DNA of 64,000 bases from NCBI GenBank assembly GCA_964035545.1, contig OZ037765.1, forward strand, positions 33,169,004 to 33,233,003, in the 5' to 3' direction. Made by a program: the position numbers and the translations under genes. Below are positions 15,265-52,681 of the stretch, one piece after another. How positions within the stretch are numbered: position 1 is the first letter of the stretch; each line of letters opens with the position of its first letter. Source of the DNA: Bugula neritina. Taxonomy: Eukaryota > Bryozoa > Gymnolaemata > Cheilostomatida > Bugulidae. The notes beneath the pieces are model-generated. The model was not told the DNA's origin, did not search any database, and saw only the letters and a program-made list of their open reading frames with translations.

Positions 15265-15270
15265 TTTATT
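15265..15270 (-). promoter_or_regulatory. Probable polyadenylation signal (AATAAA) of the large gene
   Basis: AATAAA on the minus strand about 390 bases downstream of the stop codon at 15658-15660. It is the first canonical signal seen after the stop. Confidence 0.5.
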
Positions 15271-15657: not shown

Positions 15658-16209
15658 TCACAGTTCGTCTGTTTGTCGGTTGGTGTCGAGATGGAAAAGT
15701 GACGTCTTACGACGAATAGCTCTTCTCTTGCGCACAGAGTCTTTTGCAAGAGAGGAACGATTAAGTTGACCCTTTTTCATAAGAGAGTCATAAACACTTC
15801 GCCTCTTTCTTTTGTTATCTGGGTAAGTTAGTCTGAAACGACTGCGGTGGGCGGAGCTCTGTTGGGGAAAATAAAAAATGTATAGCCTACGATAAAGATA
15901 ATGAGTTACAGGAAAAATTGGCCATAAGATAAAATGGATTGCATAATTAAATGAGTTACATAGTGAAACAAGTCACACGATGAAACGAGTCACATGTGTT
16001 CAAGGAATTGTAATCTAGCATTTACTTACTTATATACATTAAAGATCAGTAAATACTTTTGTGGTGGGTGTATTAAATGCAGTAGGATTAAAAAGTGAAT
16101 CAGCTAAAATAGTTAAGGTTTTATATAATACATACTTTGATAAATTGGGGAGAGCCAAATAACACCCCTTCTAAATTCTTTAAATACCCCAAGTTGGTTA
16201 GACCTCCTT
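15658..16209 (-). other. Large gene exons 47-48: basic tail with two furin-type sites
   Basis: Exons: 16136-16209 and 15658-15858. The tail contains RKRR at residues 2928-2931 (within KRKRR) and again at 2954-2957, both matching the furin rule RX(K/R)R. They flank a 22-residue segment beginning SVYDSLMKK. The last four residues are TDEL. Confidence 0.8.
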
Positions 16210-19200
16210 CTGTAAAAAAAGTAAACATCATAGTCTCAGTACATTTTATTCTAAACAAAAGTTGAAAATGAATAAAAACTAAACATAATAAGAACATCAT
16301 TAGGTCACTGTTACAATGAGTATTACTATAATTAGCAAGTTAATGTCTTTATTTATATCAGCTGATCGCACTGCATGGCACGTAACAAATACTTACTAAC
16401 TTTAGGGTGAAGTACTAACTATAACATATAATTATATTGTACTTTATGCATTCACAACTTACAAACAGCCTTCTACTTTTCTAATAGAATGGTTTCAAAT
16501 TAAGCCAAATAACTATTCTTATAAAACCAATTTAAATATTGCATTGAATTTTATTTATTGCTTCATAAAAATTCATATTTATTTATAGTATTAATATTTA
16601 TTACAACTATTAGTTAAACATTAACTAAATTTGATACAAATGATCTGATTGGCTGATTATTTGAGTATAACCAAGTACCACAGCTAATAGAAATAATGTA
16701 ATCATAACAGTTGAAGCACAAGCTCGTTGGCATGACACAACGGTATGCTGCCTACCATAGTCGCTGTCATCATTCATGGAGTAGTAGACTTTGAGATGTT
16801 CTGTGGCAGCGCTATGAGTGTATGAGGGTTGCTGCCATATTGTGTCTAAGTCAGCGTCATCCACACTGATGTCATAGATCCGAACCTGTAGCAGCACACC
16901 AAATGTTGATGAAAACACAGCACAGCACAGCACACGGTGTTATAAAAACTACTTCATGATTTGGTAAAAGAAAATTGCAGATTTTAAAATTTCTTCAAGA
17001 AGAAAAGTAACACACCTTTCAAAATGTGTGACTAAAAATCTATATACATTATGTAATCAATATATCAATTTAAGAGATGTCAATCCAATAAACACAGAAA
17101 TTATGTTTCATGCTTCACAACATTTCATGAAAATTGCAACAATGATGGCTTTTTACCATCTCATATTTTTAGTATAAGCTCCGAGCACTACAAATTATTG
17201 ACCAAACAGAATTTCATGTATACTATATTAAGCAGCAAAAATCCAAGGGCTAAACTATAGCTATTGAGTTGTTTTCTCTATTCTTAAGACAGCACATACT
17301 TTGCTGTTGTCATGGAAACATAACAACACTAAATATCTACCAGCTCTTATAATTTAGATTACCTCATCAATGTAGCCTGAGAAATAAAAACTGCGAGATC
17401 TGCCCAGATAGAGAGAGCGGTCCTCCGTCCCATTCCAAGTGTATGGTTCAACATCCGATAGGCTCACTGTGTTGCTACCATTCAGCAACATTGTCAGTAC
17501 GTGATCTGTGGGACATATTATCTTTATAATACAGCTGTAGAAAGCTAATGCTTGGGAAACACATAAAATATGGTTGACTTGGGTTGATTTAGTTTTTAGA
17601 AGACAAATCTTGAAAAAACCAGCTTCTACTAAACACTAATAACTTATTCTGAGTGATGAACAAACAGCTGTGTGCATTTATTATGATTAGCCAACATCAC
17701 CTAATTTTCTAAAATTAATATATTTCTTTACTAACAATAATATATTATTTATGAATAATGTGATGAAAACAACTTATCTCGCTTAATATAGCATCATATT
17801 AAATCCCATAAAATATGCTTTGACGTATGTAACTTTTAAGGAGCATGCATATAAAATATTCCAGAATGCAGAGTTGCCTTCTCAGAGTAAGAGAAAGTAA
17901 CTACGAAAACACTATTATAAACCTTCAGCATCATATCTGTAGAGGACATGGTGCCAGCCATCTTTGTTGAGGGGACGACTCTGAATAAGCTGAAATACAT
18001 CATGTCTTCCAACTAAGTATCCACTACTGTTTACTGACAGGCAGATTAGCTCAGTTTCTGTACACAACAGCGGGTATTCAATGGCGGGGTAGTCCGTAAC
18101 GTATACCCACATGCTAACAGTGAAACTGCAACATAATAAAGCATAAATAGCTGTTACATGCTCTACTCTATAAACTTTGGCAGAAACGCAAACTCTTGGA
18201 GATTTGTGTTTTGTCTTTCTTCTTACATTAAAAACTTCAAACTAAAACTAAGTTGCTGTGGGGACAGCTCAAATAGCTGAGCTCAGTCTAAGTGTAATAA
18301 AATTAAAGCTAATGCAATTCAATAAATAGAATTGTAGACTCAGTACCTATAATTCACAACTCATGGTCACACAAATTTCTATGTATCACATTGGAGTCAG
18401 GTGTGATTTTCGTAGCTTATGTTCTATGCAGACATGCACGAAATTAATCTTGGTTTACCAACAAGAAGATTTACCAGACCAAAAATTAAAAATTTAAGCT
18501 AAGGAAATCTAGTCATTAAACTCGTAGTACTATTCTACATGAAATCAGGGTTCTAGAAAGTTCCGTGAGAAGCACCTTTCCAGGATGTCAATCTCGGACT
18601 CCTTGATGGATCCAACATAGACGTAGTCAGTCACTTTGTTCAGCTTCAGGGCGTAGTTTACTGTATTCATGCACTTCACCTTCAAGTTAGACCAGATTCC
18701 AAAGTCCTGTTTGAAAGTGAACAAACCCACCCGACCTCCACCAATAGTTGTATCATAAACATTGCCGCTATCAGTGATCAGTGTTTCTTGCTGTTTAATT
18801 ACCACCCTGAAACACCAACACATCAAAATATTTATGATATTATTTGTAATCATTACAAAATTTGATAAAATTTTACTAAAAATCTGTCAAGAATTAGTTG
18901 AATAGAAAAAGATCAACCACCAAAGTAATTTCTTTTCAATTCATTTCACAGATGGTCTAAATGCATGACAGTAGTGGACAGATCTCACTAGAAGTTGTAA
19001 AACTAAAACTACTTGTTTAAATATAATATAACTTGATAGTTAGTATTATTCTGGATTATAACATTATTGCCATTTAATACCGGATTATTATGCATACATA
19101 CCAGATTTTAGGTAAAATGGCACAAATGAAAAAGCAGGTAAAACACACTGATGTTAATGTTTCCCAAACCCCCTGCTTGAAACCCGAACCCTCAACCCTT

Positions 19201-22200
19201 AATTCCCAAACCTAAACTCCCCCTTCCGAACTCCCTAACCCTAATATTGGAAATGTGCCATTTTTATTTACTTTGCCATTTGCGCCATTATTACCTATGC
19301 AACGTTTACAGGACACCTACATACCAACTGCATCAGCCTAAAGCAATTTAGCAGTTGTCTTCCCACTAGTAAACAAAAAATTAGCCATTACATTAATATA
19401 TGTACTAGAATATTAGCATACTATAAACTTTAATAAAACCTTGTATTATCCAAACATGAAGTAAATGAATATACTTCAACACCTTTGATACATGTGCTGT
19501 CTCACCACACCTGCGGCACGACATAAAGGGGAGATTACTCTCTATACACTCACCTCAATAAATACCACAGAGCAAGACTATAACTACACACCTGATTAAT
19601 CCAATCTCAGGTCTGTGTTTAATATGAAACTTGTAGCTTGTTTTACACTCCCAATTTCTTAGCCAGCGATCATGATATAAGATACTAACGTGGTCGGTAT
19701 CCACACTGCTCCACACACCTGAGGCTAGGTCATAACCTGGATCCACAGCCGAGTTCACCAACTGAAGAACATTAGATTCACATACCATGACATCATCTCA
19801 AAAATATAATGTATGAGTCATGCAGAGTCAGTAAATGAGTCACATGAACTAATTTGAAGTTATTGAAAAACATTTCTTTCAGATGCTATCTGGACTAAAA
19901 GAAGTAAAGATTATTGCTTAGAAATAAAGAAAACTAGTATTTTGGTCAGTTTATGCTATTCTATGCTTTTACCATAACATCTTTGAGCTCTTAATAACAA
20001 TGATTAAGGTCCATTTTATGATATCTACTTTTGCAGGTATATTTATGGGGTAATTTTTAGCTGGAATCCCACAAACAATATGGCTGTCAAAAGTATTCAT
20101 TACTTCTATAAACAAATGTTTTCATTTAGCTTATAATCACTAGCTCACATTCAAGATAAAGTCATAACAATTCCAACTGTTAGATGTTATGTAATATACC
20201 TAGTAAGACACAGATTGCTGCAGATGCATATATAAGATAGTAGAAAGTACAATATTCTATATCCACCACCTTGATCTGCAACCCCTGTAGTCCAGGAGTG
20301 TAGTCAGGGGGATAGTTCCTGTGGTTATGCTTCCAAGTAGCCAAGTAGAACTTGCGGTTGCTCTGGTATCCAAACACAAAGCCCAGGTACCCGTCACAAG
20401 TGTCGGAGTTGGCAAATACCGTCCCCGTATAGTCCATAGCATCGTAGGATGTGTCACCTAAATACACATTGTATAGTAATATGCTTTGCATGGGAAAACA
20501 GTGAATTCATTATAAATATCATGAGATGACAAAGCTTAGAAAGCTCAAGTAGGTTTTCATTTAAAATAACACGAATCTGGGACCAAGCAATATAAATAAA
20601 TACTTATTAACTTTTCTCAGCTGATAATTTTTTCAATAGCTTACTAGTACCAGTTAAAACAACTAAAAACATGTTTTGTTAATATAACAAAAGCAAACAC
20701 GGCTCCTTATAAAACAGTCAATTCTCACTCACTCAACTGTTCCACTCACCAACCAAGATGGCGGGCATATCCGTCTGCATCAGTTGTCTGACTTCTCTGC
20801 CATCATGGAGGACAAGCCAGGCCGGATCTGGAGCATCTGCCAGACTGGGGTAGAGGTTAATGCTGGTGTGACTGGAGAGGTCAGTGGTAGTTATGAATGG
20901 GTTGGATGGACAGTGGTCATCCTTATCTATCACTCCGTCTGCATCATAGTCCAACTCACACTCATCTCCTATGTAGTCCTCTACATAATATACAGACACG
21001 TGTGTGCCTATCGCTCATTACTCAGACTATAAAACTATAGTCTGACTCATATTTCTATATACTAGTCCTATATAATACTGATTGTAGCATTTACCATCCA
21101 TGTCGCCTTGCGAGGGGTTCACCACATACGGGCAATTATCGTTGTCATTATCGATACCATCATTATCGATATCTGTATCACACCTGTCTCCGATATCATC
21201 CGAGTCGGTGTCGGCCTGTTCGCTGTTAGCTGTATACTCACAGTTATCCAGAGAGTCTTGTATCCCGTCCCCGTCCGCATCATCTGTGAACACAAGAACT
21301 CAGGTCAACACTGGCTTGTCTGTTGGCAGACATAGGATGCTAACAAGGAAACAGGGCATTGCAGGTGGGGCTTGTATATTCTTAGCAAGAACTTATGTTT
21401 ATAAAATGTCTGTTCATTTAGTCAATTTACAGCAGAATAAAGCAGTATCAGGTGAGTATAATTTACTGATAAGATTTTGGTTGAAGAAAAACAGACAAAA
21501 AAATTCTATTTTTGTAAAATCTAAGCAATAAAAGTAACTTGCCAATTAAACAAAAACCCCAAACTTTCAAATAACCAGCAGAACATAAACTCAACAACAA
21601 TGAGTAAATTGTCACATGGACATACAGACAGACAGAGAAACAGGCAGACAAACAGACAGAGACAAACAGACAGATATACAGACGAAGAGACAAACAGACA
21701 GACAGACCCACCGTCTTCACAGTCATCTCCGATGCCATCTTGGTCAGTGTCTGTCTGTCCTGGATTACTTATTGAAGGGCAGTTGTCGCAGACGTCACCC
21801 ACAGTATCACCGTCTGAGTCCTCTTGACCTGTGATAGGAGGACACGTAACCTATTAGATCAGTGTACATGTCTAACAGAATAGTCTGCATTATTCTATTT
21901 GAGTATGGATGGAAGATAGAAGTGAGGTGAAACTTGGAGTTATCTGACCAGAGTTGGAATGTAGAGGACAATTGTCTGCTGCACTGAGTAACCCGTCACC
22001 ATCTTCGTCTGCGTCACAAACATCACCTTCACCATTTCCGTCCGCGTCTTTCTGGTCTGTATTTGATTCGCTCACACAGTTATCACATTCATCTCCTGTA
22101 ATGAAGAGCTTTCACTATTTATACCCCATTTATATCTAGCAGTAAGTTATAAACTTATTGTTTAATAAATGCAAATATATGAAAAAAGTAAAGCATTTGA

Positions 22201-25200
22201 ATGCAGCTACTTTAAACACCATGACCATTTAAGTAGTAAAAAAATTCAAGTTCATCTTAAAAACAAATGCTTTTCCTTTATTTTCAAAAAATAAATTAAA
22301 ACTTTCTACTAAATTGAAAATAATAATTCCTCAAAAAGGCTAAAAATACACTAAATTTTGTAGCCAATTAACTTGAAAGGTTATTTATTTTTGAGAAAAT
22401 ACCATAAGTACTTCTAAAAAGTAATATCAAACTGAATATACCAGACAATTACCAATCATATCAGAGTCGCCATCACTTTGATCTCTGTTGTAGTCGTACT
22501 GACAGTTGTCCAACAGATCCAAGATGCCATCATTATCGTCATCGTCATCGCAGACGTCACCTATGACAGCAAACAACTGATGTAAACAGTAAACAGAACG
22601 GCGTGCGAACTCCATCTGATCATATTGAATACACTACCAATCCAGTCGCCATCGTTATCCTCCTGGCCAGAGTTTGGCACATGGGGGCAGTTGTCCTTAG
22701 AGCAAGTTTCCTCCTCACAAGACTGAGCCACCGTGGGTAAACCGTCCTGATCAGCGTCTTCTGCACATATGAAACCATTTCCTGCCCAGCCATTGATACA
22801 CTACAGCATAGTATACAGTGTAATACACACTACAGTACAGTATATAGTGTAATACACACTACAACACAGTATAATACACACTACAGTATATAATACACAC
22901 TAAAGTATATAATACATACTACAATACAGTATACAGTGTAATACACACTACAACACAGTATAATACACACTACAACACAGTATAATACACACTACAGTAT
23001 ATAATACATACTAAAGTATATAATACATACTACAATACAGTATACAGTGTAATACACACTACAACACAGTATATAATGAAATACACACTACAGTATACAG
23101 TGGAATATACACTACAGCATAATATACAGGGAAATACAAAAGTGGATAATTTCTAAGCTCACAACACCAGACTAGCAGATGACACTCAGGTAACTGATGA
23201 GTAATTTTCTTTTCTATTATATGTGAGTCACTATTTCTAAAATAAATTAATCAGTCTAATAAAGCAGATTTTTGAGCAGTTAACCGCAAATGATGTCAGC
23301 ATAAGACTTGCCGATGGAATCATTTAATTTAATCTACTTTCTATCTCTACTCACGGGACAAGTTTTACTGAAAATTATAAACCACATTCTTACCATGCCT
23401 CATGTTGCGCAGTTACAAATTACTATTACACTTGTATGATGCACTACTGTAATACCACACTCACTTCCCTTTGTATAATGTACCGCTGTAACACCACACT
23501 CACCTCACACTTGTAAGCCCCGGGACCAGTGAAAATACACTCGGCATACTCAGAGCATGTGTGACGGTGGACCGGGTGGTCAGATGTGCAGAAGTTGTTG
23601 GAGTAACACTCAAACTGACTGCTCCCCATGTACCCCTCCTTACAGAACCCACAGTGGTAGCTACCTGGAAGGAAACGAACAAATAAACACAGTATGGGAT
23701 GATATGCTCATGTCTTATGATCCATATGTCTATGTTACATGACAGCAGTATATAGGTCACAACTGTCACATGCCTATAGTGTTGACACAGTAAGAGTTGA
23801 TGTCACATCCACCATTGTCAGTGTCACACTCATTGAGGTCTTCGCAAGTCTGATACGGGAGCTCATCACGTTCCAAGTTGTAGAGCTCAAAGGTTCGATC
23901 AGTGTAGTTGTAGGCCCAGGCGTCCTCAAACGTCCCGACGTAGCCTAGAGGGCAGGCCAGGCATTGGAAGCCGGGGGCAGTGTTGATACACCTCTCTGAA
24001 TCGTAGCAGGGACTGTAGTCCACACACTAAAGGAAACAGAGAGAAACAAAATATAAAGTCAAGCGCTTACTGTTGCTTATGAAAAAATTAGCTTAAATAA
24101 TAATTAGCAAGCAAGATTGAACTAAGGTCAAAGCAAAAGAGGCATTAAAATGTATATATAATACAAACAGTATTAAAAATTTGTATAGTGCAACTTTTAA
24201 TTAAAAAGCTCTTTTCACAAATAGATGCATCATTCCATATGCTTTCCTGTTTACACTCATCTCATTGATCTCTACACTCACCCCACTGATCTCTACACTC
24301 ACCTCATCCACGTCTGCACATGTCTCTCCGTCTCCAGTGAAGCCTCTAGGACAGTTGCCACAGTCATAGGAGCCGCTGCCGGTGTTGGTGCAGACTGCTC
24401 CGTCATAACAAGGAGGGTCAGCGGCCATACATGGGCACTCGGAGTCGGCAGCACAACTGTTACACAGCCCTCCCTCCGTGGAGAAGGTGCTGGTAGAGCA
24501 GGGGAGACAGCGATCTCTACCTCCACTACTAGAGTATCCTGCAGGGCAGGGGAAACAACTCGGCTGTCCAGTCAGATTCTGGAACTGGCCAGGCTCGCAG
24601 GGCAGGCAGAATTCTGTAACAGATTACATCACATCCTGCGTGACTCTAAGAGATGTATAATCAAGGGTAACACAGCAAGTAAAAGATTTAATTTTTGCTT
24701 AGTTTTTAAAGCATTAAAATATCTTTACGAAACTATTGCAGCTAAGCACTGGACTTTCAACAGTTTAATGTCATCAGTTTATTGTCAACAGTTAAGTGTC
24801 ATCGGTTTAGTGTCAACAGTTTATTGTCAACAGTTAAGTGTCATTGGTTTAGTGTCAACAGTTTATTGTCAACAGTTAAGTGTCATCGGTTTAGTGTCAA
24901 CAGTTTAATGTCAGCAGTTTAATCTCAACAGTTTAATGTCAACAGGATATCAATATTACTACCAACTAAAATCAAAATTCAATTATTGAATTAAAGTTTC
25001 TGCGAGGCTAAAACAAAAAGTTTAAAATAAATTATCTAAAATAGTCATTATGTTTGAGACACGAGAGTTAAAGAGCAAGTGGAGACAACTCCCACCTTCA
25101 TAGCCGTCACTGTATGTACCGACGTTACACTCATACTTGACACCCCCTCTGCAGGCGTGACCAGGTTCGCACTGAATGCAATCTTCACAGTGAGAGGTGT

Positions 25201-40200: not shown

Positions 40201-43200
40201 GCTGACAGCAGATAGAGACTTTCAGATTCTAACAAGATAGGTTATATCTCTCTGCTAAAAAGCATAGCAAATAAGAAAATAAATTCAAAAGCAGAAGATG
40301 TCTAGATCGCAGCTAATATACACACATGACTCACAGCATGCTGAGTACAGGGTTACAGGAGAAGAGGTCAGTGGGGATGCTCGAAGTCTCCTCTGTCAGT
40401 GAATTGCCGTTCAGATTCAACTCACTCAAATGTTTCAGCTCACAGAAGGCTTTCTCAGCCAGAGCTGTAATCTCATTGCCATCCAAATGCCTAAACAACA
40501 GGAGGAGAAAACTACTAACATGACGGCTAAAAGTTGGAGCAATATGAAAATACTATGATAACTAACAGTGAGATTAATATTAACAGTAATACTAAAAGTA
40601 ATACTAAAAGTAATACTACAGTAACAGTGAAAGTAACATGAAAAGTAACAAAACTAACACTGATACTCAGTATGAATAATTTTTAGTAGCTTTATTAATT
40701 TATAACATCAATAATTATAATTATGGTTATACATAATAATATTAGTGAGTCTAAATTCCAATTCCCTCGCTCACCCACTCGAACAAAGTTGTTAATTAAT
40801 ACTTTCATTTACTATTCAACTGTAAATTCAACAGCAAATTCAACATGCTAAACAGCTTTTTTTCTATTAAACACTTCTTCCTGTGAGTAAATCCAACAAC
40901 ATGTAAACATGTGTGAATGGTAAACATACAAAACTTGTATGTTTGGAGTTGTCACATTCCACTTGGACCAGACCCGGAGTCTAGACTTGTGTAGTGGACC
41001 TTGGTCGTCAGGGAAACCATCGACTCCGTAGAGGAGAGGGTCAGATATAGAGTTGTCTCCAGCATATCTATTGGGAGTAGATGTAGAACATGGTAATATA
41101 CAACTATATATCTATAGGAGTAGTTGTACAACATGGTATTATACAGCAACATATCTACTGGGAGTAGATGTAGAATTTATTACCAGTTTATAATGTAAGT
41201 GTATATCTTACTTACAATATTTATACAATCATGTAAATACTAACCATGCATCATAACTCTATAAATAACATAAACAAACTTCCAAACTAACATTTCCTAA
41301 CTTCTAATCTGCAATAACATATTGTTATTTTGAGTTATTTTAGCTTCATACATTTTTGCTGCTATAACTTTAAATAAATAAAGCTATTAGACATAAAACT
41401 AAACCTAACAAGTACACATAACTACTAGTACAGCATCTAAAATTAAGATGATAATGTTTCTCACTATTTAAACCAATCACGGCTATTTTTTCAGTTCAGA
41501 TGAGCTGAAACTGAGCCAATCAGAGCCTGACTTACATTTTAGACAATGAGAAGTAGTTTTGCTCAAACAGCACTTGATGGGGAAAGGAGACCAGACTATT
41601 GTCGCTCACCCACCTACAATGAAAGAGGCAGCAAAACATGCTAAACTTATATACTATGAGCTTTCTTTATATTGGAGTTATTCTCCCATTAAATACAGTT
41701 ATGTTATGCAAAGTACTTATACATAAAGAGAAGTAACAATACCTTGAATCTAAATTTATACAAAACAGCCCTTTTAAAACAGTGAATAAAAGTTGGGAAT
41801 ACATCAAGAAGCTAAAATACTTGCAGCAGTGATATTTTATAATTACAGGCATGTGGCAATGTAGCGCTATTGTTATATAGCATTGCACAACTATACAGCT
41901 GGCACACGCATTGTCTTGCAAATAAGTTGTATTATACAACCTCAGGTCAATATTTCTTAAAGCACCCAACATACAGGTGTTTGAGTGCATGAGTAATCAA
42001 TGAGTAACCTATGTACCACTTGAAGTAATTATTGGTGAAATAAAACTAAAATTTTACAAGTTATCTCCTCTGGTTTGAGCATGATCAGGTTTAATACATT
42101 GATCAAGCAAAAGACATTTAAACTATTGTTTTGTGGGTCACAAAGAAAAATGTCTAAGAAATATAGATATTAAGATGTACTTTTTTAATTGTACATATAA
42201 CACTTACACAACATATGTGTTATATTTTTGCATTTACTTAAATTGCATCTACTATACTTACAAATAGAATACATTATACTTATATTGTATACATGTATAC
42301 TACACTTCGATTGTACTTACAATACTTGGAGCACATATTTACACTTACACTTTCATTTGTAATAAATGTCATACTTACAATAAACATCACACAATTACAC
42401 TTACAGTTCATATAAACTCTGATTGATATCCCAGAATGCATTGTAATACAAGTTGAGCATTGGAGGATTCTGGGAATGTAGTCTGAGTTCCTTTAGTTTG
42501 GGCAGCTCCATTATAGAATATGAGTACATCCTCTCTAAACCGTTGCCATGCAACGATCTACACAAAAACATCTTTAATTAATAAGACTAAAAATTGTTCA
42601 TGATATCCTATGAAATAGTATATAACATAGTCTAATATTATGGGACTTTTAGACTGTTTTAACGTCTTTAGTGAGCGATTTAAAGATTTTTTTTATAAAG
42701 TTTTGTGACTCAGGAGCTAATCTAAGATTACTCTTATCTCAGTACAACACATATAGAAGGAACATTCTTTTAATTTAACATTAAATTTTAAACTAAACCC
42801 TATTAGCCCGGCAAACTCCTCACTCCAGGTCTTGTATTAAAAACAAAATATTGATGAATAATATTTATGTATATAAATAAAAGGGTGTAAACAGATTAGA
42901 TAATGATACAAATTAACATTAAATAAGAGATCCTAAATATTTCTACATCACATAATAATTGTGATTCCAGCTTTCAATAAAAAGAACAAAAGAGATTAAT
43001 AGAATATAATAGCTCCAATCCATATAAAACAATAATATATTATATAGATTGAGTTCTAAAGTTATGCTAACACCCTAACTTAACTGGTGCGATATTATAC
43101 AGCATGTGTAATTGTGTAGTATTACCTAGCACTGTGCAGTGTGATGTAACAGTGTGCAGTGTTATGTAGCAGTGTGTAGTGTTATGTAGCAGTGTGATGT

Positions 43201-46200
43201 AGCAGTGTGTAGTGTTATGTCTCACTGTGTAGTGTTATGTAGCAGTGTGTAGTGTTATGTAGCACTGTGCAGTGTTATGTAGCACTGTGTAGTATTATGT
43301 AACAGTGTGTAGTTTTATGTAGTCCTGTGTAGCAGTGTGTAGCGTTATGTCTCAATGTAGCATACTTACAGATATTCCAGACTTGGTATGTTCCGGAAAA
43401 CCCCTTTAACCACCTGAGACAGCTTATTAGCATGCAGCTCTCTGTAACACAGATATACTACACATTATTAGGAGAGGGCAACTCTAACACCAAACTCAAC
43501 CAGTCATAATTCACTAGCCGACAATATTGCTATTTGTTTAATGGCATGCTGTAATAACGTTGGCTTTTGATCAGATATAATCATTTAAAGTGGTGATTTA
43601 CTATATCAGTCGTATCTTTGATGGCTTTCCAATTTGTAGATGTAACATAACTGCTTTACTTTAATCTTCAACATAGAAATTAGCATAAATCACAGAATCT
43701 ACTATATCAAAGCTGGCAAAGGTAGTTGAAAATTAAGATGGGCGGCTTTTCATATCTATTTGTAAATATTTTCCTAAAATGTTAATAAGAAATCATAAGC
43801 AGGTATGTAGCTAATACACCTACACCATTATATTTCTCCCCAAATCTTACCTATGATTACCTATAATGACAATATTATAGATACATGAAAAAACTTCACA
43901 GTTGCATATAAATCTTGCATAATCTTGAGAAATAGTAATGACAGCTGTAATGTAGCAAACGCAGTCGGTAAATTAGTAGACTATGAAATTGCCTAAGATA
44001 AGTTTCTGTATGCTTCACTGCTTTGTAGAAAATATAATAGACAGCAAATTACAAGAGCTCATGGCAATTGTGTAACAAAAAGTTTTAGTGGAGTCACTGT
44101 TATATAATATTGGTACAACATATTACAGATGAATGGTTCATTAAATTTTATATAATTATTATCACATAAACAATTTAGACAGTTTAGATAGAAATTGTAA
44201 TTTGATTTTTTGATTTTTTGCCAAATAATAGCTGAGTATTGGCATCAGTTCAAGTTATTATAGAGAGGAAGGCTGCAGGTAAACTGTTGCTTTGAAGTAT
44301 ATATTAATTATTTTCCTCCTTAATATAAAATTCAGTTGAGATTACATAACTGATTATATTCTGCAATTCCCCTGGTGGAGTTGAAAGAGACAATCATTGT
44401 GGATTCCACTTATTAAATTGCAAAGCAAGGTTTATGAAATTTAAATTGAGTTTAAAATGAGATTTTCTAATAAAATTTATTTCTACAAGCACACTGATGT
44501 TTAATAGAAGAAGAAAATAATAAGTGAACTAGGAAAGAGTATACATATAATATAATGAGAGCTACAAAAAGCTATAAATTAAAGCTATAATAATAAACAG
44601 GTAGCTAAGGCTGATTATAGTAATAAATAAAAGCATAGAAAGTAACTATTTCTTCTAACAATACTTACATAATAATTAGGTCACTTACAGTACTTACAGT
44701 ATAATATAATCACATACAGTACTTACAGTATAATTAGGTCACATACAGTACTTATAGCATAAGTAGGTCACATATAGCACTTACAGTATAATTAGGTCAC
44801 ATACAGTACTTACAGTATAATTAGGTCTTGTAGCCCAGTAAGAGCTCCAGGCTGAATATAGTCTATAGCATTGTTACTCAGATTGAGGCTGAGAAGCCTT
44901 GACTTTGCGTAGCTATTTCCTGTCAGGTGACGTTTAGATATCTGCGGAATTTCATTCTCGCTCAGACCTCTACAAACAAAATGCATTGAGATACATACAA
45001 TGGCAGCTGAAAATAATCCTGGAAGGCAGTGAATTTATTCAACAAGAGACTATATGTGAAGAATATGAAACTACTTTGGATATTGATGGACTTGGGCTTT
45101 TGGAAATTTTCCATTAACACAGAATTTGAAAGAATATATTTTTAGGCTAGACCAAACACAAGGCCATGGTCACTGAAGCAATAACAAACTTTTCAGTGTA
45201 ATACTAAACTCATTTAAATTTTATAGTTGCTTTAAAAAGGTTTTCTCTTTTATTGACATTCTCATGATAAAATGGAATTTATGTATCCTTGAAACCACAG
45301 AGTATGTGACACTCTTTTATAATCAATTACTGTCACCACAGCTCATTTATTACATAATTTATGTTTCAGATTCACTAAAGAAAAGATTAGGCAAATTCTG
45401 TACACAGTTGCTGGGTGACAGAAGATATTCTTATACTAATAGTATTACTAACACTACTTATACTAATAGTTTTACTAACACTACAAGTCTTGTACTATGA
45501 TATACTCATACTAATAGTATTACTAACACTACAAGTCTTGTACTATGATATACTCATACTAATAGTATTACTAACACTACAACTCTTGTACTATGATATA
45601 CTCATACTAATAGTATTACTAACACTACAACTCTTGTACTATGATATACTCATACTAATAGTATTACTAACACTACAACTCTTGTACTATGATATACTCA
45701 TACTAATAGTATTACTAACAATATACCAATGACTACACAGTTACACCACTTGTTGCTGTCATAGCAGCAACATACAAGCCTCGCTTTAACTGATTAAACT
45801 ACATAAAAAAGAAACCAAGTACAAGCAATGTGCTATATTCATGTATTTCAGTTGCTACGATCCTTAGTTAAATTTGATAAGATTAATTTATTAGATTAAA
45901 CATTCAATAACTTGATAATAATTACGAAAATTACTAGAAGTTAGTGTTACCAGAATCAATGACAAAATACACTATCAAATGAAAGACAGCATGTAATAAC
46001 TTGAGTAAACATATCATTAACTAAGAGTAACTTTTCTTTTATTTATTCACTCAAAAGCAATTTGTCCCAAGTTTAGTAACTTATCATTATAATAAAATAT
46101 AAATAAACTCATAACATGGACATGGAGCAAGTAGTCTGCATGACTCACAAATGACTCAGCTCCGGCATATTCCGGAATGCCAAGAAGGGATAGTGATTCA

Positions 46201-49200
46201 AGTTGTTTCTGGCCAACTGCCTGCAAAATATTCATATTCTGTAAAACTGTAACAAGAAATGAAAACATCGGGTGTTTAGTCTGAAGTTTGGCGGCAATGA
46301 AAGTTTATTGCAATGTTAAATATTAGTGCGTAGGTATTACATCAAACTTTCACAGCTGGACAAAAATTTAGAAACAAATTGCAAAAGGCGGAGTATACAT
46401 AGTCACTTTTCTATTATTAGTCTATTCAACAGTTAATTTGAAAAAATCTATTTATAGATTTAATACAATAAATGAATTTTAAGACAAGTGTGTAACAAGA
46501 TTTGATAAATACAAATACACACTCAAGTAATGAGAGATTAATGCAGTGAATAAACAGAGAGCTGACAGTGTGAATAGTGAAATGCAGATGAAGTTAATAT
46601 TTGAATAAATAATCAAACTGAAGTATTGATGTTGAAATGAAAAGATTCGGCAGCTAAACAAATACCTAAGCTATAGATTACAGAATTCTATCTCAATATT
46701 TGTAGAGAATAAATGCTGAGCTTCTGTATTACACTTTAACCATTGTTGGCAGTTTAAAACCAATTGAAATATTTTCATATAGTGTGCAACCATCACTATG
46801 TAATAACATAACATAATAATAATATTATGTAACGAAATGTAACTTACAGAAATTGGATGTTGCTGCCTGAAAAATAACCATCTGGGAGGTAATCAATGTT
46901 GTTGTCTTGCAGAGCACTGAAATAGATAGACATCAGGGTTAGGGTCAATTACATATGAATGTAATTAATTACAATTACATGAGAATTTGTCAATTACAAT
47001 TACAATCACAGTTGAAATAAATGTAAAATTACAATTACATGGTAATATAATTAATTACAATTACAATAATTTTTGTTCTCACAAGAGACAGATAAAAGTT
47101 ATAAATATAATCTCACTTCTGGGGTCCAACTACCAGGGGTAATTTTGACAACTGAAAACCTTCTTTGTTCTCAACAGTAACAAATAGGGTGATAAATACA
47201 TGAAATTAATCTGAACCTTTTATTAAACGGTAGACAAGGCAGAAAAAATATGAATTTTACAATATTTAAAAAATTGAAGTAATTGTTATGTAATTATAAA
47301 GTAATTGTTAATTTCAATTACATTAGCAATGTGATTAATTACAATTACACTTACATTTTTTACATCAATTACAAATTACATTCAATTACTTGAGAAAATG
47401 TAATTAATTACAACCAATTACAATTACCAATTACAATTACCCCAACCCTGGTAACAACAAAATATATTTTGGGCTTTGACATGCTTCATAACAAGATGCA
47501 TCTTTTAGTCACTGTGCAGAGCACTTAGGAGCAGTAGTGGAGAAATTGAGATAGCCTAAGTTGTTTAAATTTCTTTATAAATTTTGTTCTGGGACTCAGG
47601 TTGAAATTCTTGCTAGAATATACTTTCTTATGCTACATTTCTAATCTAGAACGCAGGCTTTTCTCAAACTTAGATGCAAGCATTGCACATGCAGCAGAGT
47701 GTGGGAAATTACTGAAACATAACAAGGTAATCCCTAAACAAACAGAAGTTAAAAATAGTAGCAATGTTTGCTGCAAATAAAATTAATGAGTGTAAAGTAA
47801 AACCAAACAAACATTTAGTTAGTAACAAATCTGAAGATATAAAGAACATTTGTGTATAATGTGATCAGCAATGCATTATGGGATACTTGCAATGTATTAT
47901 GGGATACTTGCAGTGTATTATGGGATACCTGCAATGCACCATGGGATACTTGCAGTGTACTATGGGATACCTGCAATGCACCATGGGATACTTGCAGTGC
48001 ATTATGGGATACTTGCAATGCACCATGGGATACTTGCAATGCACCATGGGATACTTGCAATGCACCATGGGATACCTGCAGTGTACTATGGGATACTTGC
48101 AATGCACCATGGAATACCTACACATGAGTTAGCTCATTGGGCCAGCTAATCTTGGTGTAGTTGTGTGGAAAAAGCTGAATCTCGTTCTCTCCAAGCATAA
48201 GGAGAGAGAGTTTAGTATTAGATATATCAGGTACTGTGGTAACACCAGTCCTATGAATGATCCTGCAACGTATCAACAACAGTAATATAAATTATACAAT
48301 GGCTTGTGTGTGGTGAACATGGCTAATGAATGAAAACCAATTTTATGCAAAACACAGAGGTTGGTTTAATTTACTAGTTTCTGGACAAAGTGATGTATTT
48401 ATATGCTGAATAATTAGACAGGTTAACAAATTCAGTGAATGGAAAGGAAACCAGCTACAAACCACTATAACATGAGCCTACTCAGCAGGTGTAGTGGGCA
48501 ATGTGATTGGGCAGAAATAAGCCAATCACAACACACTATATGTTAGATAAACAACAACCACACATGCAGCATATAATATACGAATATAGATATATGAATA
48601 GTTTGCTATTAAATGGTTATAGGGTCAACAGTTACTTATAAAACATTAAATTAAGTTCTCACATCTGACCATGTAATGGTTATATAGCACTTAAAAGAAA
48701 CAATAAAACGAATCAATACATTATGACAGGAATTTGGTGAGTGACTGAAACACTACTGCTAACATAGAACAACATCATATGACATGTGAGCTAGCACACA
48801 TTTACTAGCTAGGCAGGAAGAGGCTCTCGGTGAACAGGAAATTGTGTTTTCTAGCTAATCAAACTTTAATAGAATCACAAAAACTGGCGCAGTATTCCAG
48901 AAATATACGAGAAACAGCCAGAAGAAAATAGGGGTTTAAAGCTGGCCGTGTATGACTTGGTGAAAAGTTTTATTGAACAACTTTTGATGAACTTTGAAAT
49001 TTCCAGAACTTTTTAAATTTACTCACTCAATTTAAAACTTTTTGCTTAGCCCATTTCATTTCGAATAAAACAGATATTGTAAGGAATATAATTTCCTTTC
49101 ATATTTAAAAATTAGACAGTATTATTACATAACACTCATAGCATGCGATTGCTAAAATCAACTTACAATAACATAAATATGATGTTGGATTAAGTGAATT

Positions 49201-52200
49201 AATTTAACATTAACTTGAAATTAGGATGAGCAAATTTCTTCAACTTACAGAGATGTGAGATCAGTCAGATGGTCAAAAGTGCCTTCACCAATCACAGTGA
49301 GCTGAGGAATATTGTAGATTTTACTACAATCAGATATTATAGAATACATAATACTAATCCCAAGGAGTTGATAAAATCATTTAATTATCACATGTATTAT
49401 AACATGCAACAACTTAGTTATCCTTGTGCTTTGAGATTTCTATAGTATAACACAACTGCAATTGTTGACAATTCTAAGTACGATACTTGAAAAAGACTTG
49501 AAAAAATTATTAGTTGAATTACTAATCATCTTAACTTATAACTACTAATTACTGTTAGGCCTAATATTTTTATTGCAAAAAACTATTTGTAAAAACTCAT
49601 TAAAATCATCAAAAACAAAAAGTATAAATTGCCAAAGATTCCATAGAGCATTAGTTTTCTTTTATTCAGGTATGAAAGAAGCCTACAGACACTTTGGAAA
49701 GTAACGATACACTCACATAGATGTAGTGGCAGAGGTGAAGGTCTCAGCTGTTAGACTCAGGATGTTGTATTTAGTCAGGGTGCTACATAGACATATACAG
49801 TGTAATTAAATCTTAAAGGATACATGCATACTATAAAGATATCTATGTCTATTGGAATATAACCATATACATCTAGAAAATAGAAAGCACTTCTATAATA
49901 GGCCTTTGATTTCATGTTAAAAGATTTACTAATCTGAACCAACACGGAAGTTCTTGAACTGTAAAAGGTACTTATTTTATAACAAAAGAAATATTTTCAA
50001 ATATCATCTAGCCACCATTTTAGCATATAAAGGAGCTCCTTCCTTAATGTGTTTGTGAGAATTAGATTGGATGAACATCATGTTTTAAAGGTATATGAAA
50101 AGTACTGTATAGTAGACTATACACTAGACTGTATACTCTTCTAATGTTCAGTTGAAAGACTTTTAGGCAGAGCTGGGTTTCTTAAAACCAAATTGTTGTA
50201 TTATAGCTATACAGGCTTTCAGAGAAAAAGCTGTGAAAAGCTTTCAGTTAAATAGCTAATACTTTACATCCTGATTTCTGCGCAATACAACTATAGCTAA
50301 CATCCTCTGTGCACAATAAAACATAATATCATCATAATCCTACACAAATAGCATATCCAATGCAGAGATGTGATTCACCACAGAAAAATAACTGAACTAT
50401 AAAAACAATAAACAGTAAATTATAAAAACTAAGAAAATCTCCCAAAAACTACAATTCATCTGTGTTCTCAATAACTGAGACAATGGCCCCTGACACGAAT
50501 CACCTCAGCTTACACGGATTAGCATCATAACTTTTATTGTTAACCAAAATATTGGCAGGGATTAAATTTCAACAGCTTAGATTAGATGTAATTAGAGCTG
50601 TAAACAGGTGGGATTTGCTAGGCTAACCGTCTGAGCACCATTAATATTATGTATTTTTTATCTACTTGAAAAGACTCGATACTAGCCCCAGGGACTCAAA
50701 TTACTAGCCCCAGGGAATCAAACTCAATATCTCTTGAGTTGATCTGTCTCCAAACAGCTCTTGTAAGGACCTTAAGGCTACATATGTTCTCGTGATAATC
50801 TCATATTGTGCTCCAACTAGATTCTTATCTGAAAGATTGAGGTTTGCAACCAACTGGAAACTGCATGGCTGTCCATGTCGTGTCTACATACACCTACACT
50901 ATACGAGTATATATATTATATACACTCTATATACTTACACCATACTTACTCTATGTACTTACACAGTATATACTTACACCATACTTACTCTGTATATACT
51001 TACACAGTATATACTTACACCATACTTACTCTGTATGTACTTACACTCTACACACTCAGTATGTACATACACTCTTTAGATTTACACAGTATATACTTAC
51101 ACCATATATACACTTACTCTGCATGTACTTACACCGTATAATTTATATTTGCACTGTGTATACTCACAATGTACACACTTACACTACAAGCTACATAATT
51201 CACATTACATAGTATATTTCACATGTTACTTACACTGCACCAGAACACCCTGTGGCCAGTCCTGCTACTTCATCACAAAAACAGGTACAAGTTCTGACAC
51301 TGTATGAGGCTGGAGAGAAATAGAAATTGGAAGTTATGACACTTGGGTTGTCACTCCACAGCAGGTGCTGGTCTGTGGCTATAAACATGTACAATGTAGC
51401 ATATATTAACATATATACTATAACTATTACTTTGACTATATATGATATTATTACATATATTATAAAATATTGTTCTAGTTATATATAAGTTACATAATCT
51501 CGCAGTATTCTATTATATTTATTATAACAAATATTATTATAGTTACTATATCACTGCTAGCAACATAGATAGCTGCATCAAATATAATGTGCTATGTAAT
51601 AAATTCATATTACGTTTGGTGCTGAATGATTAAATTCAAATGTTTATGTGTGGTGGAGGACTTATAGTATTAGTTGGCTTATTTGGCAGGTAAAATTCAT
51701 TCAAAGCTCCATGATTGATACAGTGACAGGTAACCTTGAACACCACTTGCATGTGACAAACTTGTGACATACATGTGACATGTGACATACATGTAGCATG
51801 TGACAAACTTGTGACATGTGGCAATGCATGTGGCATGTGACAAGTGGTATAGATGTGACACTTAATATAAATGCAAGCACTGCACATTACATTTCACTGG
51901 ATCATCTGATATTAACAAGTAATTTCATGTATTCAAGTATTACTATTGCTAATACAGACGGCACAAGTAATTTCAGTATTTGCTGCTTGCACTATTATGT
52001 TTACAATTTCTAGGAAGCACTAGTAGTTGAACAGTCACTAATAATTATACAAGGAAGCTGTGTTAATAGTATATATGTCTAGCTAGAGGCTTTCCTCTGG
52101 GAAAAGTACACGAGTGTACTAAACAAAAGCTTATAAATTATTTATTTGTTTTCGCGATACTGTTTCAACTAAACATTAAAACTAATGTTTAGAAAATGCA

Positions 52201-52681
52201 GGAAGAGAAAAATGAAAAACTGTATTCAGACAAGGGTTTGCGTGCATTGTCTCTTGGAAATTCCTACTTATTTGAAAGAATCATATATTCACAAATTTAC
52301 AATTTTTAAACAGATCTATAATCACAAAAAATCAATATTTTTATGAAATATATATTTAATGTATTCTAAATCTGCCAGAGTTTAAATCTATTTGGGTTGA
52401 AGCAATTTTATTTTTGCCAAATGAAAACTCTAAAAGTATTTAACAAATCTTAAACTAATGCTTGATTGTTTCAAAAGTTTCCAAAATTGAATGTTTTAAA
52501 GAAAATAAAATCCTTTACCAGAGTCAAAGTTGATGGAGAATCTGTCATTGTAGTATTCCCAGCCATTCCAGGTGACGTAGGGTCTGCAGAGGGGGAGAGT
52601 AACTGCTAGCAGCAGAAGAATATATCCACCCCTGGCAGCATATCCACCCCTGGCAGCAAATCTACCCCTGGCAGCAGTCAT
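15658..52681 (-). CDS. Giant secreted mosaic protein: LRR, fibro-slime, cadherin, F5/8C, EGF, TSP3/TSP-C, LamG (48 coding exons, 2977 aa)
   Basis: Exons were traced by hand from ATG 52681 to TGA 15658-15660. All 48 lengths sum to 8934 nt and every junction is phase-consistent, so the domains belong to one reading frame. Residues (approximate): signal peptide 1-33; LRRNT-like Cys cluster 85-103; about 35 LRRs 104-997; LRRCT 998-1047; FN3-like 1048-1149; fibro-slime 1150-1439; cadherin-like 1440-1692; F5/8C 1693-1861; Cys-rich/EGF 1862-2213; TSP3 2235-2495; TSP C-terminal lectin domain 2495-2690; LamG-like 2690-2886; basic tail 2887-2977. No membrane segment was found. Known roles of these modules are calcium-dependent adhesion and matrix or carbohydrate binding; the role of the whole protein is not known to me. 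The blocks below list exon positions. Transcription as one mRNA is inferred from phase and lack of internal starts or stops; a split into several genes is possible but less likely. Confidence 0.85.
16756..18125 (-). other. Large gene exons 44-46: LamG/concanavalin-like lectin fold
   Basis: Exons: 17923-18125, 17363-17505, 16756-16885. [45 protein letters not shown] follow the LamG/pentraxin-like jellyroll pattern (WxxV...RxDxG...GxIDEVRIY). It sits after the thrombospondin C-terminal domain, where known thrombospondins end. Confidence 0.85.
18576..20457 (-). other. Large gene exons 41-43: thrombospondin C-terminal domain
   Basis: Exons: 20270-20457, 19592-19761, 18576-18806. Diagnostic stretches are [23 protein letters not shown], abbreviated here as [17 protein letters not shown], then [34 protein letters not shown] and [18 protein letters not shown]. 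These follow canonical thrombospondins strand by strand. The last third of exon 43 starts the next module. Confidence 0.95.
20750..22800 (-). other. Large gene exons 35-40: thrombospondin type 3 repeats
   Basis: Exons: 22638-22800, 22453-22560, 21949-22095, 21712-21828, 21095-21283, 20750-20980. All internal introns are phase 1. They encode runs of DxDxDGxxDxxDNC repeats ([43 protein letters not shown]), the calcium-wrapping wire of thrombospondins and COMP. Exon 40 passes into the start of the C-terminal lectin domain ([13 protein letters not shown]). Confidence 0.95.
21615..21711. repeat. CAGA-type repeat starting at a 5' splice site
   Basis: In gene sense the intron after exon 38 opens GTGGGTCTGTCTGTCTG and continues as TCTG/TTTG words, so the array starts within the donor region. 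Confidence 0.85.
22801..23130. repeat. Degenerate repeat (ACACTACAACACAGTATAATAC)
   Basis: About 330 bp of variable 19-24 bp copies, immediately upstream (gene sense) of the acceptor of exon 35. Confidence 0.8.
23425..23503. repeat. 39-bp duplication of an intron 5' end
   Basis: In gene sense the intron after exon 34 starts GTGAGTGTGGTGTTACAG at 23503. The same start recurs at 23464 (GTGAGTGTGGTATTACAG), 39 bp later. Confidence 0.85.
24240..24302. repeat. 21-bp repeat of an intron 5' end
   Basis: In gene sense the donor start GTGAGTGTAGAGATCA at 24302 recurs at 24281; a third copy begins ATGAGTGTA at 24260. The unit is 21 bp and stays open in the exon's frame. Confidence 0.88.
24755..24950. 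repeat. Tandem repeat (GTCAACAGTTTATTGTCAAC type)
   Basis: About four 42-bp copies made of three related 13-15 bp sub-units (TGTCAACAGTT, TGTCATCGGTT), intronic between exons 31 and 32. Confidence 0.85.
25840..26070. repeat. 37-bp minisatellite containing the exon 30 donor
   Basis: Exon 30 ends CTGG|GTAGGTGTAACC, and in gene sense the block CTGGGTAGGTGTAACCTGCA recurs about every 37 bp, around six times. Each unit therefore includes the last exon bases and a 5' splice site. Confidence 0.92.
26660..27770 (-). other. Large gene exons 27-29: discoidin (F5/8 type C) domain
   Basis: Exons: 27574-27770, 27127-27262, 26660-26833. ARLN ... [18 protein letters not shown] is the family core. [19 protein letters not shown] and [22 protein letters not shown] form the remaining strands, with the terminal LYGC cysteine. 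Such domains bind phospholipids, glycans or collagens. Confidence 0.9.
27265..27500. repeat. 15-bp minisatellite (AGTAATACATTATAT)
   Basis: About 15 copies just upstream (gene sense) of the acceptor of exon 28. The acceptor at 27263-27264 lies at the end of the array. Confidence 0.9.
27780..28075. repeat. ACTATGACTA degenerate repeat filling an intron
   Basis: The whole intron between exons 26 and 27 is made of GACTA(T/C)(T/G)A words without a constant period. Confidence 0.75.
29185..29724 (+). mobile_element. 3' fragment of a non-LTR retrotransposon
   Basis: Plus-strand frame 29198-29614 encodes a reverse-transcriptase ORF tail: [17 protein letters not shown], then [14 protein letters not shown] and a closing C2H2-like finger [21 protein letters not shown], written here as CPHCGK...HLRTH. 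This tail is common in invertebrate LINEs. The polymerase and endonuclease parts are missing (5' truncation). It lies in antisense inside an intron of the large gene and inside the 33-bp minisatellite; ACTAGTATTA occurs on both flanks. Confidence 0.85.
29725..33339. repeat. 33-bp minisatellite, about 109 copies
   Basis: The unit is about AGTGAGTTGACACATTACAT plus ATACTAGTATTAT. It contains the perfect 10-bp palindrome ATACTAGTAT. It runs from the donor of exon 24 (33339) to the retrotransposon fragment, with a few degenerate copies on the far side (29100-29180). Higher-order blocks are visible. Because 33 is divisible by three and the unit lacks stops in one minus frame, a spurious 1254-residue frame results. 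Confidence 0.97.
34636..36650 (-). other. Large gene exons 17-22: fibro-slime domain
   Basis: Exons: 36590-36650, 36098-36307, 35595-35793, 35293-35362, 35018-35115, 34636-34867. The order matches the fibro-slime/PA14-like fold: [10 protein letters not shown] then HHVDFTGF, a middle part [31 protein letters not shown], the [14 protein letters not shown] strand that corresponds to the family's 'DDVWVFINGKLV' motif, and a closing [12 protein letters not shown]. The family is best known from Dictyostelium prespore-inducing proteins, slime mould matrix proteins and bacteria. Recognition is from memory of the family pattern; the intron splitting is consistent throughout. Confidence 0.78.
35835..35940 (-). 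mobile_element. Possible tRNA-derived SINE relic
   Basis: In minus sense a B-box-like GAGTTCAAATCCC is preceded by GTGTAAGAGCACCC about 40 bases upstream. It lies in the intron between exons 18 and 19 of the large gene. Similar weak B-box-like sequence (GAGTTTGATTCCC, minus) occurs near 50725. Confidence 0.3.
37203..37402 (-). other. Large gene exon 16: FN3-like second half
   Basis: Continues the domain begun in exon 15 ([12 protein letters not shown] ... [18 protein letters not shown]), ending in a phase-1 donor (ACAC|GTACGT). Confidence 0.75.
37843..39446 (-). other. Large gene exon 15: second LRR block, LRRCT and FN3 start
   Basis: A single 1604-nt exon, about ten times longer than its neighbours. 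It encodes about 19 LRRs of the LxxLxLxxNxI type, then an LRR C-cap ([10 protein letters not shown] ... ATCSYPP ... TITC), then the first half of a fibronectin III-like domain ([15 protein letters not shown]). It is fully open with strong codon-level LRR periodicity. Confidence 0.92.
42180..42404. repeat. Degenerate GTAAGT-rich repeat after exon 10
   Basis: In gene sense the intron opens GTAAGTGTAATTGTG, and TGTAAGT recurs at least five more times within about 220 bp at irregular spacing. Confidence 0.65.
43130..43362. repeat. 20-bp minisatellite (CAGTGTGTAGTGTTATGTAG)
   Basis: About 11 copies with small deletions, starting about 8 bp inside the intron after exon 9. Confidence 0.88.
44650..44827. 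repeat. 29-bp minisatellite spanning the exon 8/intron junction
   Basis: Exon 8 ends GACCTAATTATACT|GTAAGT. In gene sense the block (T)GACCTAATTATACTGTAAGT recurs about every 29 bp for five or six copies. The first copy's left part is exon sequence. Confidence 0.92.
45420..45725. repeat. 48-bp minisatellite
   Basis: Five to six copies of a unit with TACTATGATATACTCATACT, intronic between exons 7 and 8. The open frame through it is an artefact. Confidence 0.92.
46935..47450. repeat. ATTACAATTAC simple-sequence tract
   Basis: Interrupted runs of TTACAATTACA over about 500 bp in the intron between exons 5 and 6. Confidence 0.7.
47870..48121. repeat. 21-bp minisatellite starting at the exon 5 donor
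   Basis: In gene sense the intron opens GTAGGTATTCCATGGTGCA and continues in 21-bp units with (A/G)AGTATCCCATGGTGCATTG, about 12 copies. Several units contain CAGGTATCC, a donor-like site. Confidence 0.92.
50880..51235. repeat. GTGTAAGTATATAC minisatellite starting at the exon 2 donor
   Basis: Exon 2 ends GCAGT|GTAAGT. In gene sense about 350 bp of variable 15-25 bp copies follow, with more than ten further GTAAGT hexamers. Confidence 0.88.
51700..51860. repeat. CATGTGACA degenerate repeat
   Basis: Words such as ACTTGTGACATGTGACATAC in the intron between exons 1 and 2. Confidence 0.65.
52519..52681 (-). other. Large gene exon 1: signal peptide
   Basis: Starts MTAARGRF. A three-fold AARGG(Y/F) repeat precedes a hydrophobic core ([13 protein letters not shown]), which fits a secretory signal peptide with a long basic n-region. 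An 18-bp tandem repeat underlies the n-region. The donor is TCTG|GTAAAG, phase 1. An upstream non-coding exon was not identified. Confidence 0.8.

Follow-up and report, generated by a model that had tools for sequence, protein, structure and literature searches.

Mega-thrombospondins (mega-TSPs) have been described as carrying, in this order, a signal peptide, an LRR region of ~1000 amino acids (aa), a central region with a cadherin domain, a thrombospondin (TSP) C-terminal region and a second concanavalin A (ConA)-like domain; they typically exceed 2,700 aa, are without the DDD calcium motif, and in bilaterians typically carry F5_F8, fibronectin III and cysteine-rich domains (PMC6526912, accessible part). 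The table in the accessible part of that paper lists them from non-bilaterians (ctenophores, calcareous sponges, a placozoan and cnidarians), from an orthonectid, annelids, a nemertean, a phoronid, a brachiopod and molluscs, and from deuterostomes (echinoderms, hemichordates, cephalochordates and Ciona), and has no bryozoan entry. Here, we describe a locus of the bryozoan Bugula neritina that, judged by its predicted protein, almost certainly encodes a mega-TSP as one gene. It lies on the minus strand of a 64,000-nucleotide (nt) stretch, hereafter the window (assembly GCA_964035545.1, contig OZ037765.1, positions 33,169,004 to 33,233,003). We also describe a two-part C-terminal tail, shared by many of its homologs, that may govern exit from the endoplasmic reticulum (ER).

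The locus encodes a predicted mega-thrombospondin

The curated chain is 2978 aa long, above the 2,700 aa of the family, and matches over cut-off the Pfam models LRR_8, F5_F8_type_C, EGF_3, TSP_3, TSP_C and Laminin_G_3 (52.3 bits; other scores in Table 1), while EGF_CA reached 41.7 bits in the draft chain. The TSP core aligned to solved structures at very low E values (COMP 3fby, E 1.1e-140; COMP and TSP-2 both E ~1e-140), and the DDD motif was absent at its place in the window protein and in the 15 aligned homologs (16/16 rows). The LRR region, the cadherin domain (marginally), the TSP core with a second ConA-like domain and the absence of DDD were thus all found; from the bilaterian set, F5_F8 was present, Ephrin_rec_like fell just under its cut-off, and fn3 had no Pfam match in the window chain and matched 5/16 aligned members. 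Early family and homology searches used draft chains, and the 16-row alignment and later domain scans used the curated chain. An earlier note on this DNA had proposed the order LRR, fibro-slime, cadherin, F5/8C, EGF, TSP3, TSP-C and LamG, which Pfam and NCBIfam bear out with cadherin and fibro-slime under their cut-offs; its further claim, that this architecture is unknown from any described family, fails, as the domain order is that of the mega-TSPs (PMC6526912). The LRR-first layout is already known. No other paper on mega-TSPs was found by titles and abstract starts in the literature searched, which leaves out most subscription papers, and preprints.

A search with residues 1000-2900 of the draft returned matches from molluscs, an annelid, echinoderms, hemichordates, amphioxus and cnidarians (best 120 of 214), and the best single local alignment covered 91-98% of these residues in the first twelve rows and less in some others. 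We aligned the window protein with 15 of the 120 listed proteins (predicted proteins of molluscs, an annelid, echinoderms, a hemichordate, amphioxus and cnidarians), which were 33-43% identical to it, with a mean column identity of 47%. At E 0.01, LRR_8, Cadherin, EGF_3, TSP_3, TSP_C and Laminin_G_3 matched 16/16 members and F5_F8 14/16; the two cnidarians among them (P0035 and P0041) are without F5/8C in precomputed domain lists, which agrees with the view of discoidin as a bilaterian addition (PMC6526912). Trees of 25 and of 29 rows, neither including a canonical TSP, nested the window protein within spiralian mega-TSPs (SH-aLRT 100).

Canonical thrombospondins are short chains in which an N-terminal domain of their own and a coiled coil come before the EGF-TSP3-TSP_C core, and they carry a DDD motif; the LRR N-terminus and the absence of DDD set the window protein apart from them. 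The canonical Bugula TSP, on contig C4, keeps the motif (NSEIDDDYVGF). Identity within the TSP core, at 42-53% to eight mega-TSPs versus 43% to the canonical C4 gene, hardly separates the families, and Pfam coiled-coil models had no match, even in the C4 protein. The C4 gene itself (C4:6643500-6673200) lies downstream of a gene with a proprotein-convertase P-domain on the same strand, and our gene finder fused both.

Several scores weigh against this assignment. Cadherin stood slightly under its cut-off and is marginal (28.5 versus 28.8 bits, E 2.1e-06), Ephrin_rec_like scored 22.7 bits in the curated chain (cut-off 23.1) and 24.3 in the draft, and Fibro_Slime (TIGR02148), with a cut-off of 45, reached 37.0 bits on the central piece of the draft and 27.0 on the whole chain. 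In three cnidarians, moreover, the best single local alignment covered just 53-56% of residues 1000-2900.

The NCBIfam Fibro_Slime model matched 16/16 aligned mega-TSPs at E 0.01 or better, two cnidarians included, and by these matches the fibro-slime region is a general trait of the mega-TSPs sampled, not a special addition here. The accessible main text of PMC6526912 does not name fibro-slime, and names PA14 for Hydra only; no paper joining fibro-slime and thrombospondin was found in the literature searched. PA14 (PF07691) had no match in the window and three over cut-off on contigs C120 and C128, in an assembly search that scored best candidates only. We suspect that the Hydra PA14 of PMC6526912 is the same region as fibro-slime, a correspondence that is unproved, with PF07691 matching 1/16 mega-TSPs.

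The interval reads as a single gene

With borders set by hand against homologs, the minus strand from 52681 to 15658 yields 48 coding exons of 8937 nt including the stop and no internal stop; GT and AG bound 47/47 introns, and phases agree at 47/47 junctions. Near-equal alternatives existed for the start of exon 2, the end of exon 5 and the donor of exon 21. The single frame of 48 phase-matched exons put forward in the earlier note is hence upheld, with its sum of 8934 nt and 2977 residues corrected by one codon. The ATG at 52681 is the first in its open stretch. Exon 1 had no tblastn support from homologs and exon 48 had weak support (E 0.017 and 0.18 in two homologs, among the matches listed). 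Across the locus, 39 homologs gave 2267 minus-strand versus 48 plus-strand tblastn matches, with no plus-strand match below E 1e-3; barring repeat-to-repeat matches, these were collinear with the gene in four homologs listed, and those of a hydrozoan homolog ran from the LRR exons through to the last exon.

We also applied a small purpose-written gene finder, trained on open reading frames of the window and independent of the model behind the earlier note. Confined to 52690-15500, it started the gene at the ATG at 52681, closed it at the stop codon at 15658 and predicted 50, 53 or 59 exons depending on the intron penalty, and with a homology bonus it gave, at one penalty, one gene with the same ends and 56 over-extended exons. 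These runs also furnish the points that count against the model: on the whole minus strand the locus was found fused with its neighbours (54325..245, 65 exons), the confining interval came from the earlier note, so that the ends were not found unaided, and with the homology bonus and a higher intron penalty the locus broke near 26 kb.

That break, the readiness to join genes that the unconfined run displays and the 3.6-kb minisatellite inside intron 24 would all suit two or more adjoining genes, an LRR receptor-like one and a separate thrombospondin-like one, read as one. We consider this very improbable: phases agree at every junction, single predicted proteins in several phyla span both halves in order, and the first exon of a split-off second gene is without homology support. 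Homologs of several phyla align along the chain at 33-43% identity, and the interval is therefore taken to be a single gene, a point that homology, rather than transcripts, appears to settle.

A conserved two-part tail in mega-thrombospondins

We compared the C-termini of the window protein and 44 homologs (45 rows). Forty of the latter came from the 120 listed proteins (P0001-P0036, P0038, P0040, P0041 and P0045; the other 80 were excluded for having no mega-TSP architecture by listed domains, mostly TSP3 repeats without TSP_C), and four (P0121-P0124) were new from a second list of 24, of which 13 were already included and 7 excluded (protocadherin-like and others). P0045 is a doubtful member and was scored as a non-tail row.

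A furin-type site, R-X-[KR]-R, lies within the last 60 residues of 25/45 mega-TSP rows. All 25 of these end in [HRT]-X-E-L, and 0/20 rows without the basic site do. E at position -2 and L at -1 are invariant (25/25), position -4 is H in 23/25, R in 1/25 and T in 1/25 (the window protein), and position -3 is acidic in 6/25 and S or T in 16/25, with HTEL the terminal four residues of six tails. Directly after the basic run stands S (16/25), D (7/25), N (1/25) or G (1/25), and the next position is V, L, I or A in 24/25; between the predicted cut and the last four residues lies a linker of 2-42 residues. The tail thus appears conserved at both ends and variable in the middle. Inside the same proteins, the ending pattern accounts for 96 of 119,863 four-residue words (0.0008), and it ended 1/207 other proteins, a weak control whose background includes 120 COX1 chains. 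The tail rows are related proteins, with 22 distinct 20-residue ends among the 25, and the counts are not independent events.

The weight lies instead in how widely the tail persists: tailed rows come from corals, a hydrozoan, echinoderms, a hemichordate, amphioxus and a bryozoan. The 20 non-tail rows include three that stop early or end otherwise (P0021, P0030 and P0045) and three that end differently (P0004, P0008 and P0023); the 14 that remain (12 molluscs, 1 annelid and 1 further) end, by eye, within ~2 residues of the would-be cut. Their ends read, for example, YPNN, YPDN, YPTN or HPEN, versus YPDN or YPEN followed by RRRRR in tailed rows; scallop, oyster and Haliotis stop ~2 residues short of the would-be cut, and Owenia one residue beyond it, again by eye. 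We then built a tree from 25 of the 45 rows with the last 80 residues removed, and tail presence required 2 changes on it (shuffled mean 7.5; 0/500 shuffles as low). The simplest reading would be that the tail is ancestral, was lost twice in Spiralia and persisted in the bryozoan; one loss plus a regain is equally short. Among the matches listed (best 120 of 214, and the second list), none was by name a ctenophore, sponge or placozoan mega-TSP, and the tail is therefore not datable further back.

Neither KDEL nor furin is mentioned in the accessible main text of PMC6526912, which calls the end of mega-TSPs a terminal, nonconserved sequence. The tail pattern was not found in the literature searched and seems to be the new part of the present finding.

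A possible removable retrieval signal

The earlier note had called the product a secreted adhesion or matrix protein of about 3000 residues. The size holds, and an adhesion or matrix role is very probable; plain constitutive secretion is less sure given the KDEL-like end. By eye, a 12-residue hydrophobic stretch follows the first 20 residues and forms a putative signal peptide, and it is because of this N-terminus and of what is known of the family that we call the protein probably secreted. By family knowledge likewise, it would enter the secretory pathway, its thrombospondin core would bind many calcium ions, and its LRR, discoidin and ConA faces would bind cell-surface and matrix partners.

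The reading we propose, at a rough probability of 0.38, is that mega-TSPs carry an ancient removable tail (R-X-[KR]-R, 2-42 residues, an HXEL-type end). It has representatives among cnidarians, echinoderms, a hemichordate and amphioxus, was retained in the bryozoan and is missing from the molluscs and annelid sampled; a giant, calcium-loaded matrix protein would thereby stay in the ER until cut, its release then being permanent. The claim that the tail is a convertase-removable KDEL-like ER-retrieval switch across the family is likewise tentative, and more doubtful for Bugula itself. KDEL receptors would bring the precursor back to the ER from the early Golgi; in molecules that escape, a furin-type convertase would cut the basic site, removing the retrieval signal and making export final; and release might come in bursts on a fall of ER calcium or saturation of KDEL receptors, as in wounding or regeneration. 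There is precedent for such an ending: carboxylesterase 2 is kept in the ER by HTEL and leaves it once these residues are removed (PMC4624787, accessible part). Thbs4 acts inside the secretory pathway (PMC5063588, accessible part), and with an intracellular thrombospondin on record regulated exit is plausible, though this is no proof here. The Bugula assembly holds at least one gene with a proprotein-convertase P-domain, adjoining the canonical thrombospondin on C4, and two KDEL receptor genes, on contigs C1 and C2, with a third partial match on C207. The C1 receptor keeps D50, E117 and W120 of chicken KDELR2 and has H at 54 where chicken has S; D50, E117 and W120 are likewise present, by eye, in the C2 receptor.

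Several points stand against removable retrieval. KDEL receptors act upstream of the compartment of furin, which makes the order of events a guess. Bugula TDEL fits K/H/R-D/E-E-L at positions -1 to -3 and departs from it at -4, where it has T and 23/25 rows have H. Human KDEL receptors reject A and D at -4 and demand D or E at -3, where 16/25 tails have S or T, and TDEL is absent from the accessible text of the same paper (PMC8248988). With T at -4 and Bugula receptors that keep D50, E117 and W120, TDEL may therefore work poorly, and the Bugula tail may be a weak one even should those of echinoderms or corals function. Finally, Ciona TSP-DD is described as secreted (PMC6526912, introduction, accessible part).

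Two other readings account for parts of the same pattern. The tail could mark a permanent ER resident, a calcium-rich chaperone-like protein, as KDEL-like ends in 25/45 rows would suggest; vertebrate Thbs4 overexpressed in skeletal muscle was found mainly in the ER and post-ER vesicles (PMC5063588, accessible part), and the Hydra section of PMC6526912, as accessible, reports transcripts and knockdown and no protein localisation. Yet 25/25 tails have a furin-type site ahead of the KDEL-like end, which would be needless in a permanent resident, the 14 tail-less rows ending near the predicted cut speak against residence, the adhesion domains fit a role outside the cell, and the secretion described for Ciona TSP-DD is contrary to it, so that we regard this reading as unlikely. 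It is easier to entertain, if still doubtful, that the basic run serves as a patch for binding glycosaminoglycans, while the XEL end has no ER function and was inherited by accident. Many proteins bind heparin through basic runs, TDEL lies off the H consensus, and 19/25 tails are without an acidic residue at -3. An accident of this kind sits poorly, however, with E at -2 and L at -1 staying invariant in 25/25 tails across linkers of 2 to 42 residues, and with basic site and ending being co-present or co-absent in 45/45 rows; the S or D followed by an aliphatic residue after the site also resembles convertase preference.

If the removable tail is real, mega-TSP secretion would be regulated. This would bear on the debate on intracellular thrombospondin roles and on the finding that silencing of the Hydra mega-TSP blocks head regeneration (PMC6526912, accessible part).

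Gene features and surroundings

Coordinates of the gene are collected in Table 1; on the contig (C1) it spans 33184661-33221684.

Table 1. Exons, domain regions and repeat of the Bugula neritina mega-thrombospondin gene (window positions).
Feature	Position	Strand	Basis
Mega-thrombospondin gene, 48 coding exons	15658..52681	-	Curated model, confined gene finder, homologs along the chain
Exon 1, start codon and hydrophobic signal-peptide-like stretch	52681-52519	-	Read by eye
Exons 2-15, LRR ectodomain (~residues 100-1000)	37843..51378	-	LRR_8 279.2 bits, 12 stretches; tblastn
Exons 2-8	51378-51234, 49782-49717, 49323-49249, 48262-48122, 46916-46848, 46220-46149, 44969-44814	-	
Exons 9-15	43441-43370, 42557-42405, 41613-41536, 41067-40930, 40490-40335, 39898-39739, 39446-37843	-	Exon 15 is 1604 nt
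Exons 16-22, linker and fibro-slime region (core ~residues 1268-1350)	34636..37402	-	Fibro_Slime; invariant alignment columns
Exons 16-22	37402-37203, 36650-36590, 36307-36098, 35793-35595, 35362-35293, 35115-35018, 34867-34636	-	
Exons 23-26, cadherin-type region (Pfam stretch 1502-1552)	34152-33985, 33500-33340, 28876-28707, 28342-28083	-	Cadherin 28.5 bits
Minisatellite, 33-nt unit x 109.7 copies, most of intron 24	29719..33339	.	TRF
Exons 27-29, F5/8 type C (discoidin), residues 1711-1851	27770-27574, 27262-27127, 26833-26660	-	67.7 bits
Exons 30-32, cysteine-rich ephrin-receptor-like region	26236-26067, 25255-25096, 24613-24303	-	Ephrin_rec_like; invariant Cys columns
Exons 33-35, EGF domains and first TSP type 3 repeats	24026-23770, 23660-23504, 22800-22638	-	EGF_3 36.7 bits
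Exons 36-43, TSP type 3 repeats and TSP_C (L-lectin-like), without DDD motif	18576..22560	-	TSP_3 158.8, TSP_C 210.7 bits
Exons 36-43	22560-22453, 22095-21949, 21828-21712, 21283-21095, 20980-20750, 20457-20267, 19761-19592, 18806-18576	-	
Exons 44-47, second ConA/LamG-type domain	18125-17923, 17505-17363, 16885-16756, 16209-16136	-	Laminin_G_3, residues 2712-2855; begins at end of exon 43
Exon 48, C-terminal tail: YPDN, KRKRR furin-type site, second RKRR, terminal TDEL	15858-15658	-	DNA read directly; tail comparison

The minisatellite begins exactly at the donor of exon 24, and its unit therefore repeats the donor-like word GTGTCA; we read this stretch as intron because the listed homologs pass directly from exon 24 to exon 25. 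Predicted exons at 29479 and 29332, among others, were dropped for want of homology support, and early models with fused neighbours, spurious micro-exons and repeat extensions were replaced by hand-read borders.

Elsewhere in the window, a predicted patatin-like phospholipase gene occupies ~245-11674 on the minus strand (Patatin 59.3 bits for a joined piece). Several minisatellites separate its predicted exons, and in the same region lies a perfect 875-nt inverted repeat (2636-3510 and 5246-6120, arms 1735 nt apart). Two plus-strand genes, 54377-56258 and 59892-62008, look related by eye and have a membrane-anchor-like start; the latter has a sub-cut-off beta-mannosyltransferase match (BMT, 20.5 versus 28.3 bits). 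On other contigs of the assembly, a mitochondrial-type COX1 lies on C295 (435.4 bits) and matches that of Bugula neritina at 100% identity over 511 residues, with a second copy at C6:11174072-11175412 (433.3 bits) that is probably a recent nuclear insertion; by eye, C17 carries a bacterial-looking terminal oxidase subunit that may belong to a bryozoan symbiont, and C196, with a COX1 bearing an apparent intron, looks like another organism. Given such contigs, COX1 taken by itself might misidentify the source, but the C6 copy and the place of the mega-TSP within Spiralia agree with it. A GH6 search of the assembly, a check for tunicate origin, found nothing and says little, as control genomes gave no match either.

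Comparison with known systems

We take the carboxylesterases to be unrelated in sequence to mega-TSPs and to have no furin-type site before their signal. Those with HTEL or HIEL ends share with mega-TSP tails the H-X-E-L C-terminus and a non-acidic position -3 (PMC4624787, accessible part). Canonical TSPs and COMP (3fby, 2rhp, 1ux6 and the Bugula C4 gene) have the EGF - TSP3 - TSP_C core in common with the window protein, at 43% identity to the C4 core; in contrast to them, the window protein adds LRR, fibro-slime, cadherin and discoidin regions in front and a second ConA domain behind, and is without DDD. With the mega-TSPs (Crassostrea, Ciona and Hydra) it shares a length near 2,900 aa, the ~1000 aa LRR region, the central cadherin, the discoidin and cysteine-rich parts (bilaterian; the latter just under its cut-off here), the TSP core, the second ConA-like domain and the absence of DDD. 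It differs from those in the accessible part of PMC6526912 by its phylum, and the tail called nonconserved there is read here as a conserved two-part end; the gene thereby extends to Bryozoa a family that was surveyed in 2019 in other phyla.

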